A DNA stretch of 64,000 nucleotides, from contig NZ_CP021435.1 in the NCBI RefSeq assembly GCF_002549795.1, positions 744,001-808,000 on the forward strand, written 5' to 3'. The notes under the pieces are model-generated. The model saw nothing but the letters and a program-made list of their open reading frames with translations. It did no database searches and was not told the DNA's origin. This document shows, in pieces, positions 57,977-63,069 of this stretch. The stretch comes from Halomonas beimenensis (lineage in GTDB: Bacteria > Pseudomonadota > Gammaproteobacteria > Pseudomonadales > Halomonadaceae). Position numbers and translations under genes: made by a program. Within the stretch, counting starts at the first letter, position 1, and every line of letters starts with the position of its first letter.

Positions 57977-60451
57977 ATGGCCAAGCGACCCTCCTGGACG
58001 GCCCTGGCAGGCCTGGTGACCTCGAGCCTGATGACGACGGGCCCGGTGCTGGCGTCGCCCCCCGAGCCCTTGCCGGCCGACCGGCTGGATTGGCGGCCCT
58101 GGGGCGACGAGCGTCCCGCCGGCGCCGTCTGCCGGGGACGCTACGTCATGCCGGACTATCGCCTGGCGGCGCCCCCCGAGGGGCGGGTGGCCAGCGAGGC
58201 CGATCGCGGCGAGTACGGGACGCAGGGCGAGACTCGGCTCGCCGGGGAGGTGGTGCTGCGCCGCGGGGACACCCAGCTGGAGGCCCCGGCGGTGCGCCTG
58301 CCGGCCGCCCGGGACCGGGTGCTGGCCGATGGGCCGCTGGCCATCCGCGACCGCAACCTGCTGGTTCGCGGCGAGGCCGCCGAGTTTTCCCTGGCGAGCG
58401 ATGCCGCGCGCATCGAGGGGGCCCATTACGTGGCGCACGCCCAGCGCCTGCGCGGCGATGCGGTGCGCCTGGCTCGGCTGGAGGACGGTCGCTATCGGCT
58501 GAGCGAGGCGAGCTTCACCACCTGTGAGCCGGGCAGCGACCTCTGGCGCCTGGTGGGACGGGATATCCTGCTGGATCGGGAGAGCGGGTTCGGGACCGCT
58601 CGGCATGCCCGCCTCGAGGTCGGCCGGGTGCCGGTGTTCTACTGGCCCTGGGTGCGCTTTCCCATCGACGAGCGTCGCCAGACCGGTTTCCTGTGGCCGG
58701 TGGTCGGCGTCTCGGGCGATGGCCTCGACTATGCCCAGCCCTTCTACTGGAACATCGCCCCCGACCAGGACGCGACCCTGACTCCCCGCTGGATCGGCGA
58801 GCGGGGCGAGTCGCTGGGGGGCGAGTACCGCTATCTCTTCCCGTCCGACGCCGGCACCCTGGAAGGGGCCTACATGGTCGACGACCGCCGTGCCGGCGAC
58901 GAGGCCGCCGCGGGCTCCTCTCTCGAAAACGGCGACGACCGCTGGTACCTGGACTTCCGCCACGCCGGGCGCTTCGGCTCGCGCACCCGCTATCGGCTGC
59001 GCTATGGCGCGGCCAGCGACGGGGCCTACTTCGAGGACTTCGGACGCAGTTTCGGCGAGACGGAGACCCGGAGCCTGTCGCGCCTGGCCGGGCTCGACTA
59101 CCGCGGGGAGGTCTGGCGGCTGGAGGCCAAGGCCCAGGGCTACCAGAAACTCGACGATCCCCTGGATCCGGGCGACAAGCCCTTCTATCGGCTGCCGAGC
59201 CTCAACGCCCGGGCCCGATGGAGCCAGGAGACCGGTCTCTATCAGGAGTGGGGGGCCAACCTGACCCACTTCTGGCGGGATGTCGGCACCGACGAGAACG
59301 GTCGCTACACCTTCCGCGACACCCAGCGCACGATCCCCATCCGCGAAGCGGCCGACGGGACCCGGCTGAGCCTGACGCCGGCCCTGGGCTGGCGCTTCGC
59401 CGAGAGCTGGGGCCATCTCGAGCCGCGCGCCGAGCTCACCCACCTCACCTACGACCTCGACTATGGCGATCGCGAGACCGACCGGCCCGAGGATCCCTCG
59501 CTGACCGTGCCGATCGCCTCCCTCGACGGCGGTCTGATCTTCGAGCGCGACCTCGGCCTCGGTGGGGAGGCCTTCCGCCAGACCCTGGAGCCCCGGCTGA
59601 ACTACGCCTATGTCCCGGCCCGGAACCAGCGGGACCTCCCCGACTTCGACACCAGCGAGCAGGCCTTCTCCTGGCAGCAGCTGTGGACGTCCCATCGCTT
59701 CACCGGTGGCGACCGAGTGGGGGACCTCAACCGTGTCTCCCTCGGCGTGGAGACGCGGCTGGTGGAAGACGCCAGCGGTCGCGAGCGGCTCTCGCTGGGG
59801 GTGGGCCAGGCCTACTACCTCGAGGATCGCACCATCGACCTGGCGGGCGACCCCGATACCCTGCCCTCGGAGGCCGACTTCCGACGCTTCTACGATGCCA
59901 CCCGGGACCGCTCGCCCCTGGTCACCCGGCTGGACTGGCGGCTCGGCGATCACTGGCAGACCTACTGGCAGTGGCTCTACGACGATCACCTGTCGCGCAC
60001 CGAGCGTGCCAGCTGGGATCTGCAGTACCGGGCCGAGGCGGGGCACGTGCTGAACCTGGGCTACCGTTGGGAGCTCCAGGGCTTCGATCCGGCCGAGGAG
60101 GGCGACGACGCACGCGGCTACGACCGGGAGGAGGTCGATGTCTCCGGGGCCTGGCGGGTCTCGCCGCGGCTCGACCTGATCGGCCGGGTGCTGTATGACC
60201 ACACCAATGACCGGGCCCTGGAGCGGCTGGCGGGTGTGCAGTGGAACGACTGCTGTTATGGTCTCCAGCTGGTGTGGCGCGAGTGGGTCGACGACGCCGA
60301 CACCGCCAGCACCATCGCCGATGACACCACCGACCGTGGCGCCTTCCTGCGCCTGGTGTTCAAGGGGCTCGGCGGCGTCGGGGGCGAGGCGGATGCCCAT
60401 TTCCGTAGCGCCGTCCCGGGCTATCGCAGTACCGCCTTCGGCCGGCCTTGA
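57977..60451 (+). CDS. lptD: LPS-assembly outer-membrane protein LptD
   Basis: An 824-residue protein: signal peptide about residues 1-27 (SSLMTTGPVLASPPEP), periplasmic OstA/LptA-like beta-jellyroll domain, then a 26-strand barrel region ending ...AVPGYRSTAFGRP. LptD with LptE inserts lipopolysaccharide into the outer leaflet. Cys52, a mid Cys (SFTTCEPGSDLWRL) and the late pair NDCCYGLQLVW fit the four Cys that form LptD disulfides. TATAAT at 57939-57944 is a probable -10, with a weak -35. Heads the lptD-surA-pdxA-rsmA-apaG-apaH set. Confidence 0.95.
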   Translation: MAKRPSWTALAGLVTSSLMTTGPVLASPPEPLPADRLDWRPWGDERPAGAVCRGRYVMPDYRLAAPPEGRVASEADRGEYGTQGETRLAGEVVLRRGDTQLEAPAVRLPAARDRVLADGPLAIRDRNLLVRGEAAEFSLASDAARIEGAHYVAHAQRLRGDAVRLARLEDGRYRLSEASFTTCEPGSDLWRLVGRDILLDRESGFGTARHARLEVGRVPVFYWPWVRFPIDERRQTGFLWPVVGVSGDGLDYAQPFYWNIAPDQDATLTPRWIGERGESLGGEYRYLFPSDAGTLEGAYMVDDRRAGDEAAAGSSLENGDDRWYLDFRHAGRFGSRTRYRLRYGAASDGAYFEDFGRSFGETETRSLSRLAGLDYRGEVWRLEAKAQGYQKLDDPLDPGDKPFYRLPSLNARARWSQETGLYQEWGANLTHFWRDVGTDENGRYTFRDTQRTIPIREAADGTRLSLTPALGWRFAESWGHLEPRAELTHLTYDLDYGDRETDRPEDPSLTVPIASLDGGLIFERDLGLGGEAFRQTLEPRLNYAYVPARNQRDLPDFDTSEQAFSWQQLWTSHRFTGGDRVGDLNRVSLGVETRLVEDASGRERLSLGVGQAYYLEDRTIDLAGDPDTLPSEADFRRFYDATRDRSPLVTRLDWRLGDHWQTYWQWLYDDHLSRTERASWDLQYRAEAGHVLNLGYRWELQGFDPAEEGDDARGYDREEVDVSGAWRVSPRLDLIGRVLYDHTNDRALERLAGVQWNDCCYGLQLVWREWVDDADTASTIADDTTDRGAFLRLVFKGLGGVGGEADAHFRSAVPGYRSTAFGRP

Positions 60452-60519: not shown

Positions 60520-61155
60520 ATGCCTAGCCGACACCTCGCCCCCCTGCTGCTGAGCCTGCTGCTGGGACTGCCCCTGGCCGGCCTCGCCCAGGAGCGTCAG
60601 CCCCTGGATCGCATCGTGGCGGTCGTCAACGAGGGCGCCATCATGGCCTCCCAGCTCGAGGAGCGCGTCGACCAGGCCCGGCGGCAGCTCGGCAGTCGCG
60701 GCATCGAGCTGCCGCCCGAGGACGTCCTGCGCGAGCAGGTGCTCGATCGACTGATCGTCGAGGAGATCCAGCTGCAGCTGGCCCGGCAGGCCAACCTCAG
60801 CGTCGACGATACCGAGCTCAATCGCCAGGTGCGGGCCATCGCCGAGGGTAACGGCATGACCCTGGAGCAGTTCGCCGATGCCCTGGAGGCCGATGGCCTG
60901 TCGCTCGGCGTGATGCGCGACCAGGTGCGGCGCGAGCTGCTGATGCGTCAGCTGCAGCAGCGCCGGGTGGGCAGCCGAGTGAGCCTCTCCGAGCGCGAGG
61001 TGGATCGCTTCCTGGAGCAGCAGGGCGGCGGCATGAGTCGTGAACAGGCTCGTCAGGCGCTCTTCCAGCGCAAGGCCAACGACGAGATGGAGGCCTGGCT
61101 GCAGGAGATCCGCAGCGAAGCCTTCGTCGATGAGCGCCTCGAGCCGGACGCATGA
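60520..61155 (+). CDS. surA: Short SurA-like periplasmic chaperone lacking parvulin domains
   Basis: A 211-residue protein in the surA position. A signal peptide (about residues 1-23) precedes the SurA N-domain (LDRIVAVVNEGAIMASQLEERV, LDRLIVEEIQLQLARQ, REVDRFLEQQ); then, without a gap, the SurA C-terminal helix (EQARQALFQRKANDEMEAWLQEIRSEAFVDERL). Both peptidyl-prolyl isomerase (parvulin) domains of the about 430-residue canonical SurA are missing, and the reading frame is intact. It matches in outline the core fragment (N plus C) that keeps chaperone function in E. coli experiments, by established knowledge. Confidence 0.88.
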   Translation: MPSRHLAPLLLSLLLGLPLAGLAQERQPLDRIVAVVNEGAIMASQLEERVDQARRQLGSRGIELPPEDVLREQVLDRLIVEEIQLQLARQANLSVDDTELNRQVRAIAEGNGMTLEQFADALEADGLSLGVMRDQVRRELLMRQLQQRRVGSRVSLSEREVDRFLEQQGGGMSREQARQALFQRKANDEMEAWLQEIRSEAFVDERLEPDA

Positions 61156-62210
61156 CGCCTGCTCCCGTCCTGGCCCTGACCACCGGCGAGCCGGCCGGCA
61201 TCGGCCCCGAGCTCGCCGCGATGCTGGCGGACGGCATGCCGGCCGGTGGCGGCGCACCGGACCACCGGCTGGTGGCGGTGGGCGATCCCGCCTTGCTGGC
61301 CGAGCGTGCCGCGGCCATCGGGCGCGCCCTGGAGATCGTCGAGCTGGCCCCCGGCCAGCCCGTGCCGCCGCGGCGGCACGGGGTGCTGCCGGTCTGGCCG
61401 GTGCCCCTGGCCGCGCCCTGTCGGGCCGGGGTGCTGGACCCGCGCAATGCCGGGTACGTGCTCGAGACCCTGGACCGGGCGGTGGCCGCCTGCCGCGCCG
61501 GCGAGGCCGCCGGGCTGGTCACCGCGCCGCTGCACAAGGCGGTGATCCGCGAGGCCGGCCATGCCGGCTTCACCGGTCACACCGAGTACCTCCGCGACGC
61601 CTGCGGCGCCGAGGAGGTGGTGATGATGCTCGCCACCGACCACGCCCTGCACGGACGGGATCCGGCCTGGCAGGGGAGTGCGGCCCTGCGGGTCGCTCTG
61701 GCCACCACCCACCTGCCGCTGAGGGAGGTGGCGGACGCCGTGACCGGCGAGCGGCTGACCCGGCTCCTGCGCATCCTCGACGCCGACCTCAAGCGCTGGT
61801 TCGGCGTGGCCAAGCCGCGCATCCTGGTCTGCGGCCTCAACCCCCACGCCGGCGAGGGCGGCCACCTGGGGCGCGAGGAGCTCGAGGTGATCGCCCCGAC
61901 CCTGGAGGCGCTGCGCGGCGAGGGGCTGACCCTTGACGGTCCGCTGCCGGCCGATACCCTGTTCACCCCGCGTCATCTCGCCGACGCCGACGCCGTTCTG
62001 GCGATGTATCATGATCAGGGCCTGCCGGTGCTCAAGTACGCCGGCTTCGGCCGCGCCGCCAACGTCACCCTGGGCCTGCCGCTGGTGCGCACCTCGGTGG
62101 ATCACGGCACGGCGCTGGACCTCGCCGGCCGGGGCGTCGCCGATCCCGGCAGCCTCGCCGTGGCCGTGGCCCTGGCGGCCGAGATGGCACGGCGGGGTCT
62201 CCGCCACTGA
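61152..62210 (+). CDS. pdxA: 4-hydroxythreonine-4-phosphate dehydrogenase
   Basis: A 352-residue dehydrogenase in the DXP-dependent pyridoxal phosphate pathway. GEPAGIGPELAAML, HKAVIREAGHAGFTGHTEYL, NPHAGEGGHLGREE and MYHDQGLPVLKY contain the metal-binding His residues, and RTSVDHGTALDLAG ends the active site. It overlaps surA by four bases (ATGA), so they are coupled. Confidence 0.95.
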   Translation: MTPAPVLALTTGEPAGIGPELAAMLADGMPAGGGAPDHRLVAVGDPALLAERAAAIGRALEIVELAPGQPVPPRRHGVLPVWPVPLAAPCRAGVLDPRNAGYVLETLDRAVAACRAGEAAGLVTAPLHKAVIREAGHAGFTGHTEYLRDACGAEEVVMMLATDHALHGRDPAWQGSAALRVALATTHLPLREVADAVTGERLTRLLRILDADLKRWFGVAKPRILVCGLNPHAGEGGHLGREELEVIAPTLEALRGEGLTLDGPLPADTLFTPRHLADADAVLAMYHDQGLPVLKYAGFGRAANVTLGLPLVRTSVDHGTALDLAGRGVADPGSLAVAVALAAEMARRGLRH

Positions 62211-62256: not shown

Positions 62257-63069
62257 ATGGCATCCCGCCCCCAGGGTCATCGCGCCCGCAAGCGCTTCGG
62301 ACAGAACTTCCTGCGTGACCCCGGCATCATCGCGCGCCTGGTGCGCGCCATCGGCCCCCGTCCCGGCGAGCGCCTGGTGGAGATCGGCCCCGGCCAGGGC
62401 GCCCTCACCGAACCGCTGCTCGAGGCGGCCGGCGGCCACCTCGAGGTCATCGAGCTGGATCGCGACCTCATCCCCGGGCTGCGCGTGCAGTTCTTCGACA
62501 AGCCGGGCTTCGTCATCCACGAAGGCGACGCCCTCAAGGTCGACTTCCGGGCGCTGCGTGGCGAGGGCCCCCCGCTGCGGGTGGTGGGCAACCTGCCCTA
62601 CAATATCTCCACGCCCCTGATCGCCCACCTGCTCGAGGCCGGGGATGCCGTGGCCGACATGCACTTCATGCTGCAGAAGGAGGTCGTCGAGCGGCTGGCC
62701 GCCGAGCCCGGCGGCGCCGACTGGGGACGTCTCTCGGTGCTGGCCCAGTACCACTGCCGGGTCGAGTCGCTGTTCACCGTGCCCCCGGAGGCCTTCGTGC
62801 CGCGGCCCAAGGTGGAGTCGGCCATCGTGCGCCTGACGCCCCACGCCACCCCGCCACACCGGGCCCGCGACGAGGCGCTGCTGTTCGCCCTGGTGCGCCA
62901 GGCCTTCGCCCAGCGGCGCAAGACGTTGCGCAACAACCTCAAGGGGCGCCTCGACGCCCAGGCCCTGGCGGCGCTGGGCATCGACCCGAGCCGCCGGCCC
63001 CAGACCCTCTCCGTGGAGGAGTTCGTGCGCATCGCCAATCACCTGGCCGCCGAGGAGGAAACGACATGA
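62257..63069 (+). CDS. rsmA: 16S rRNA dimethyladenosine transferase RsmA/KsgA
   Basis: A 270-residue methyltransferase that dimethylates A1518 and A1519. HRARKRFGQNFLRDP, EIGPGQGALTEPLLE and VVGNLPYNISTPLI (the NLPY motif) plus the C-terminal region with QRRKTLRNNLKG are characteristic. The start at 62257 fits the family; AAGGA is upstream. It overlaps apaG by four bases. Confidence 0.96.
   Translation: MASRPQGHRARKRFGQNFLRDPGIIARLVRAIGPRPGERLVEIGPGQGALTEPLLEAAGGHLEVIELDRDLIPGLRVQFFDKPGFVIHEGDALKVDFRALRGEGPPLRVVGNLPYNISTPLIAHLLEAGDAVADMHFMLQKEVVERLAAEPGGADWGRLSVLAQYHCRVESLFTVPPEAFVPRPKVESAIVRLTPHATPPHRARDEALLFALVRQAFAQRRKTLRNNLKGRLDAQALAALGIDPSRRPQTLSVEEFVRIANHLAAEEETT

Follow-up and report, generated by a model that had tools for sequence, protein, structure and literature searches.

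SurA of Escherichia coli is a periplasmic chaperone of outer-membrane proteins with an N-terminal domain (N), two parvulin-type peptidyl-prolyl isomerase (PPIase) domains, P1 and P2, and a C-terminal helix (C); P2 is the active isomerase domain, and the product of lptD is a SurA client. A core consisting of N joined to C has reportedly been engineered from the E. coli protein by Behrens et al. in 2001. Natural core-only homologues have been surveyed by Schiffrin et al. According to PMC11401910 (Nat Commun 2024), 73 of 14,244 SurA homologues are core-only, 49 of them from Halomonas, and the existence of this kind of SurA is therefore already published; from the rarity of the core-only form it is argued there that having one or more PPIase domains is important for survival or virulence. 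In uropathogenic E. coli the core module is described as carrying most of the in vivo activity, to which P1 adds, and the engineered E. coli core as largely restoring surA phenotypes; the PPIase domains are called ‘not expendable’ for novobiocin resistance in broth, and the core is not fully wild type (PMC2556385). Core and full-length SurA are reported to bind the BAM complex with similar affinity, and the roles of the isomerase domains are said to ‘remain more elusive’ (PMC11366764); a review states that SurA without one or both PPIase domains fails to keep OmpT from aggregating (PMC9820271). As described in PMC9578438, the double loss of surA and skp is conditionally lethal in E. coli, even the triple loss of surA, skp and degP is tolerated by Acinetobacter baumannii, and E. 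coli can be rescued by overexpressed PpiD, which acts through the SurA-core-like parts of PpiD and without its PPIase domain.

The Halomonadaceae provide natural variants and matched genomes that allow the purpose of the SurA isomerase domains to be tested; a whole genus has the bare core as its usual form, and each single-domain form is found in related genera. It is proposed, with about an even chance of being right, that this family is a natural domain-deletion series of SurA with all four architectures in similar numbers, about ten losses of P2, and a bare core able to serve as the principal chaperone of outer-membrane proteins even where Skp has been deleted; if true, the parvulin domains would be lineage-specific tuning modules and not parts of the essential mechanism. 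The locus considered here lies in the window, which is the whole stretch of 64,000 nucleotides that was analysed, from a genome assembled as one contig of 4.05 Mb.

The surA locus of the window and its product

The surA gene of the window (60520..61155, + strand) is an open reading frame of 211 codons located between lptD (57977..60451, +; PF04453, E 3e-82) and pdxA (61152..62210, +; PF04166, E 2.1e-102), with the start of pdxA overlapping the surA stop codon; the length and the lptD-surA-pdxA position given by a previous sequence-only reading are confirmed by the frame and by the matches of both neighbours. A further gene (62257..63069, +), its frame and start taken from the sequence, is presumed from sequence and place to be ksgA; it was used as a tree marker, and 248 of the 288 scanned sources contain a match to it. 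The order lptD-surA-pdxA-ksgA is also that of E. coli.

The 211 aa protein begins with a signal peptide (residues 1-23, MPSRH..LPLAGLA; 60520..60588, +), the cleavage site of which was placed by eye in a region of low AlphaFold2 confidence (residues 1-3 and 5-26). The SurA N-terminal domain occupies residues 29-145 (60604..60954, +), where the Pfam model SurA_N (PF09312) scores 126.2 bits against a cut-off of 30.8 (E 9.3e-37) and is found in the same place by a whole-genome search; the best PDB match of this domain in phmmer is E. coli SurA (E 6.5e-22). The C-terminal helix of the core lies at residues 174-200 (61039..61119, +); residues 172-203 align to residues 372-403 of E. coli SurA in the phmmer search against the PDB, a match that is weak alone at 8.2 bits. 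Profiles for N, P1, P2 and C were built from 29 two-parvulin SurA proteins; of these, N and C matched the window protein (C at 52.3 bits), while neither P1 nor P2 did, and the Rotamase/parvulin models of Pfam (PF00639) had no match in it at E <= 1. The junction lacking P1 and P2 falls at about residues 167-172 (EQQGGGM; 61018..61035, +) in the alignment with P1-only, P2-only and two-parvulin relatives. The proposed composition of signal peptide, SurA N-domain and C-terminal helix with both parvulin domains absent is thus upheld by Pfam and by the purpose-built profiles. With SurA_N, the C-terminal helix and its position between lptD and pdxA the protein is a member of the SurA chaperone family; it lies outside the full-length SurA isomerases (NCBIfam NF008038, 105.1 bits, below the equivalog cut-off of 394 bits), the parvulin PPIases (PF00639) and PpiD, and it fits the core-only SurA of Halomonas in having no PPIase domain and a predicted core fold.

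The AlphaFold2 model of the protein, calculated from an alignment of 47 proteins (the window SurA and 46 from named loci), has a pLDDT of 85.3 and a pTM of 0.74; the N-terminal region mentioned above and the last block are poor. Residues 29-208 of the model superpose on the E. coli SurA chain of 1M5Y (25-428) over 172 residues (Z 19.2, rmsd 1.8), a superposition that includes the modeled helix 174-200 and extends to SurA residue 428, and the model aligns with BAM-bound SurA from 9HG9 (9hg9_F) over 183 residues (Z 18.2, rmsd 2.4). The best 15 rows from Foldseek are all SurA, and identity to E. coli SurA over the aligned core is about 24−30%. From these superpositions the N-domain and C-terminal helix are predicted to form the usual core despite the ~220 residues missing between them; the structure model, which had been suggested as a check, therefore favors an N+C core of the E. 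coli type. The residue equivalent to E. coli Y128, the position of the client-binding hotspot that was compared and named as the base of the crevice, is Met (residue 132) in the phmmer alignment of the window SurA; this position is also non-aromatic in 12 of the 13 two-parvulin rows of the representative alignment. In the periplasm the N-domain, made into a complete core by the C-terminal helix, would bind unfolded outer-membrane clients in its crevice, and the protein would pass them to the BAM complex; it would do so with neither P1, which in E. coli binds clients and has a regulatory role, nor the second isomerase domain, P2.

A full-length surA elsewhere in the genome would have offered a different explanation; none was found, as the only other SurA_N match over the cut-off is a PpiD-like protein, named by its architecture (locus L001; 606 residues, a parvulin domain, SurA_N at 38.7 bits), and a hidden second SurA is rejected by this whole-genome search. 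The native N+C core in a genome without full-length SurA supports the claim of a natural minimal SurA; this part of the sequence-only reading stands, but the form is not private to the strain, being the rule in the genus and already in print (PMC11401910). It is considered very probable that the window protein is a working, naturally minimal SurA; chaperone activity, docking to BAM, client range and the P1-then-P2 order of loss in its genus are what we infer for it. Points that weigh against this reading are the incomplete activity of the bare core in E. coli, the Met at residue 132 and the somewhat faster evolution of the core in its genus than in g11 (below).

SurA architectures in the Halomonadaceae and the losses of P1 and P2

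SurA_N was found (E 1e-15) in 200 of 201 Halomonadaceae genomes, the loci being 180 with flanks, 30 short ones (11 of them fetched again) and that of the window's own genome; G137 (genus g4), a single contig with 93% completeness, is the sole genome without a match at this threshold. Both P1 and P2 are present in 52 of the 200 genomes, P1 only in 48, P2 only in 50 and neither in 50; a parvulin domain was identified as P1 or P2 by the better-scoring profile, with a margin of roughly 50−85 bits. In the window's genus, g1, 48 of 49 genomes have neither domain and one has P2 only; in g11, P2 only is seen in 47 of 49 genomes and neither domain in two. All sampled members of g4 (17 with SurA), g9 (2), g12 (7), g13 (5), g14 (1), g16 (10), g21 (2) and g23 (1) are P1-only, as are 3 of 14 in g20, and 2 of 10 in g2 are P2-only. 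A query-biased set of 70 named loci includes 47 from Halomonadaceae (36 with neither domain, 4 with P1, 4 with P2 and 3 with both) and 23 from other families, all of which carry both parvulins. The core-only named loci include Halomonas elongata, H. stenophila and several Billgrantia; the P2-only loci are two Vreelandella, Halomonas sp. LBP4 and H. heilongjiangensis, and the P1-only loci two Onishia, Aidingimonas and Bisbaumannia.

The idea that the core-only form stems from faulty assembly or sequencing of one genome, with the parvulin part dropped at the junction near 61018-61035, has nothing in its favor beyond the short length of the protein; it is refuted, with a negligible probability left to it, because the same form is shared by 48 of the 49 same-genus genomes and 36 of the 47 named loci. 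The comparison with Halomonadaceae relatives that had been called for thus makes the core-only form the rule in the genus.

A different gene seems to follow surA in a number of loci, as there is no PdxA match in the 10-kb surA regions L206, L207, L213, L219, L243, L245, L246 and L252 (g16), L146 and L150 (g17), L166 (g18), L196 (g19) and L242 (g11); PdxA is present in two other g16 loci.

In the representative alignment (57 rows, read by eye over the rows listed) the reduced forms are joined at domain edges: the end of P1 runs into the C-helix in P1-only proteins, the N-linker runs into P2 in P2-only proteins, and the N-linker (FLEQQGGG in the window) runs into the C-helix in core-only proteins, where the linker of two g11 proteins differs from the g1 linkers. 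An origin of the single parvulins as P1/P2 chimeras by unequal crossing-over was rejected, as none were seen by eye in the rows listed; pairwise DNA alignment gave no clear endpoints for the P2 loss in g11. P1 and P2 were probably lost by separate in-frame excisions.

Losses were counted on several trees, from which 19 of the 200 genomes, known only by 3.3-kb loci, were left out: a FastTree tree of LptD, PdxA and KsgA with 250 tips (L275 was too short and is omitted), an IQ-TREE tree of 74 selected rows, and two trees of 30 rows, one from Mfd and one from four genes (Mfd with LptD, PdxA and KsgA). If no regain is allowed, P1 was lost 3 times and P2 12 times on the FastTree tree; the P2 losses number 10 when branches with support below 0.95 are collapsed and loss-bearing children of one fork are counted once. 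On the 74-row IQ-TREE tree the label ‘neither’ needs 3 changes, 2 of which are forced by the starred branches, and the g11 core-only pair lies inside P2-only relatives (the two branches immediately around it have supports of 100 and 99); the core-only form is judged from these trees to have arisen at least twice. Since g1 contains a small P2-only clade and lies near the P2-only g11, and since the g11 pair is nested among P2-only relatives, the core-only origins appear to be from P2-only ancestors, with none from P1-only lineages. P1 would have been lost first, probably before g1 split from the mostly P2-only g11, and P2 later; other lineages would have lost P2, P1 or, in the two g11 genomes, both independently. 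Support for uniting g1 with g11 is low (0.189 in FastTree; an open fork with the P1-only g9 in IQ-TREE), so P1 may have gone separately in the two genera.

It is possible, though held at clearly less than even confidence, that g1 saw several losses of P2, or a single regain by recombination in its small P2-only clade (L076 together with G161 and L079, the latter two having seemingly identical rows in the representative alignment). This clade is placed among core-only genomes by FastTree (with one core-only group, 0.993), by IQ-TREE (with another, 81) and likewise by the four-gene tree (82/84), and among 200 bootstrap trees only 1% (Mfd) and 2% (four genes) need a single label change. However, each tree places the clade differently, and Mfd alone gives it no fixed place; one common core-only origin in g1 is not rejected (p-AU 0.0586 with 74 rows, 0.239 with Mfd, 0.145 with four genes), and 11 of 15 core-only rows (the genus and named kin) share the C-side junction (S/T)R(E/D)QA, where the P2-carriers in the rows listed have mostly RRDQI or QREQV/QREEV. 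This last argument is weak, because the P1-only g4 rows listed have SREQA too.

Constraint on the core, Skp and other candidate compensators

The dN/dS values of 11 core-only pairs, which were hand-picked and share members, range from 0.012 to 0.434; 10 of the 11 are at or below 0.21, and the highest belongs to a pair involving the window genome. In pairs from seven chosen genus groups (181 SurA proteins), the median ratio of the core rate to that of the flanking genes is 1.23 in g1 versus 1.12 in the P2-only g11, and 0.61−1.24 in the five other groups, with one two-parvulin genus at 1.24. By these values the core is conserved, perhaps with somewhat looser constraint, and is under purifying selection. 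With LptD present and the core so conserved, the parvulin domains may be dispensable for LptD biogenesis in this lineage, a reading qualified by the PpiD-like and FKBP-domain isomerases that the genome retains.

Skp (PF03938) was found in 188 of the 201 family genomes and in 46 of the 50 core-only genomes. The 13 genomes without a Skp match are nine with two parvulins (seven g20, two g3) and four core-only members of g1 (G141, G167, G189 and G195); Skp loss is thus not tied in any simple way to the retention of parvulins. The two g3 genomes, G076 and G086, consist of 230 and 260 contigs, are 95% and 77% complete, and may simply lack the skp region in their assemblies. Half of the sampled g20 genomes (7 of 14: G038, G073, G051, G083, G091, G110 and G118, all two-parvulin) have no Skp match, and the bamA-lpxD gap of G038 and G073 (L288 and L289) is 120 or 198 bases. 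One g11 genome, G190, has seven PF03938 (Skp/OmpH-type) matches; no other genome of the 201 has more than two.

The interval from the bamA end to the aligned lpxD start measures 571 bases in the window genome and, in G159, 566 bases, both with intact skp; the same stretch, with skp missing, is 148 bases in G167 (L290), 149 in G195 (L295), 171 in G141 (L292) and 242 in G189 (L291). A skp remnant of ~31 codons is left in G167 and G195, matching Skp residues 1-31/32 at 69−74% identity, and a search with the Skp protein of the window genome found no intact Skp elsewhere in the four genomes. G141 and G167 are single contigs, so the absence of skp is unlikely to be a gap. In IQ-TREE, G141 pairs with G189 and G167 with G195, and the skp-bearing G159 is nearest to the second pair; the simplest reading is two separate skp deletions. 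All four genomes keep the core-only SurA; Skp is therefore not what makes that form tolerable there, which speaks against Skp as a required compensating factor. These relatives are the sharpest cases, because E. coli shows conditional lethality when surA and skp are both lost, though A. baumannii does not; as the latter tolerates the triple loss with degP, conservation of surA without Skp is no proof that SurA is needed.

DegP-type proteases are present in all 14 genomes searched, with two or three in the Skp-less four; G167 and G195 have three such matches against two in the other 12. It has to be considered whether SurA is a fading relic in g1, less important there, with Skp and DegP carrying the outer-membrane protein traffic. 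The single Skp and two DegP-type proteases of the window genome and the constant presence of the latter are consistent with this, as is a core that evolves slightly faster in g1 than in g11; it is nonetheless improbable, given a frame that is open and under purifying selection throughout the genus, the four core-only genomes that dropped skp and kept surA, and the near-universal SurA_N of the family.

The PPIase function could also have moved in trans, to PpiD-like and FKBP-domain proteins, and not have been lost; this is regarded as less likely than not. Other isomerases do remain in the window genome: besides five FKBP-domain places there are three PF00639 places, none of them at surA, namely the PpiD-like protein and two PpiC-like proteins, one of ~92 residues from its likely ATG inside a longer open frame and one of 272 residues beside a gene for a putative nitrate-reductase gamma subunit. 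Non-SurA parvulins average 2.62 per core-only genome versus 2.21−2.40 in the other classes, an excess that is small, uncorrected for kinship and dependent on the assumption that all SurA parvulins passed E <= 1e-6. Against the transfer, these are general components, and FKBP proteins show no compensating rise in the 49 of 201 genomes counted, a set that lies apart from the four Skp-less core-only genomes; 48 of these 49, from all four classes, have 4−6 and one has 8.

Comparison with known systems

The engineered E. coli core has the same domain composition as the window SurA, N joined to C; the window protein differs in being natural, nearly genus-wide and equipped with its own junction linker. 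E. coli SurA itself (1M5Y, 2PV3; BAM-bound 8PZV, 9HG9) shares the fold of N-domain and C-terminal helix, whereas both of its parvulin domains (~220 residues) are absent here. PpiD is membrane-anchored and shares with the window SurA a distant SurA_N-like domain; however, it is ~600 residues long, contains a parvulin domain and is encoded elsewhere in this genome. The SurA-like HP_0175 of Helicobacter pylori, described in PMC9820271 as a one-PPIase protein, resembles the window SurA in having fewer PPIase domains, but proteins of its type keep one such domain and belong to a distant lineage, while the window SurA has none.

The closest relatives are the core-only Halomonas proteins of PMC11401910, which are of the same kind and from the same genus as the window SurA and likewise have no PPIase domain. 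In the text of that paper drawn on here, proteins with a single PPIase domain are counted together with those that have more, and there is neither a phylogeny of the losses nor anything on Skp in these species; the titles and abstract starts of the open-licence papers listed gave no report besides it of a Halomonadaceae SurA series or of Skp loss. Beside PMC11401910, as far as these sources extend, what appears to be new is the family with four architectures, the roughly ten losses of P2 and the core-only relatives that are without skp.
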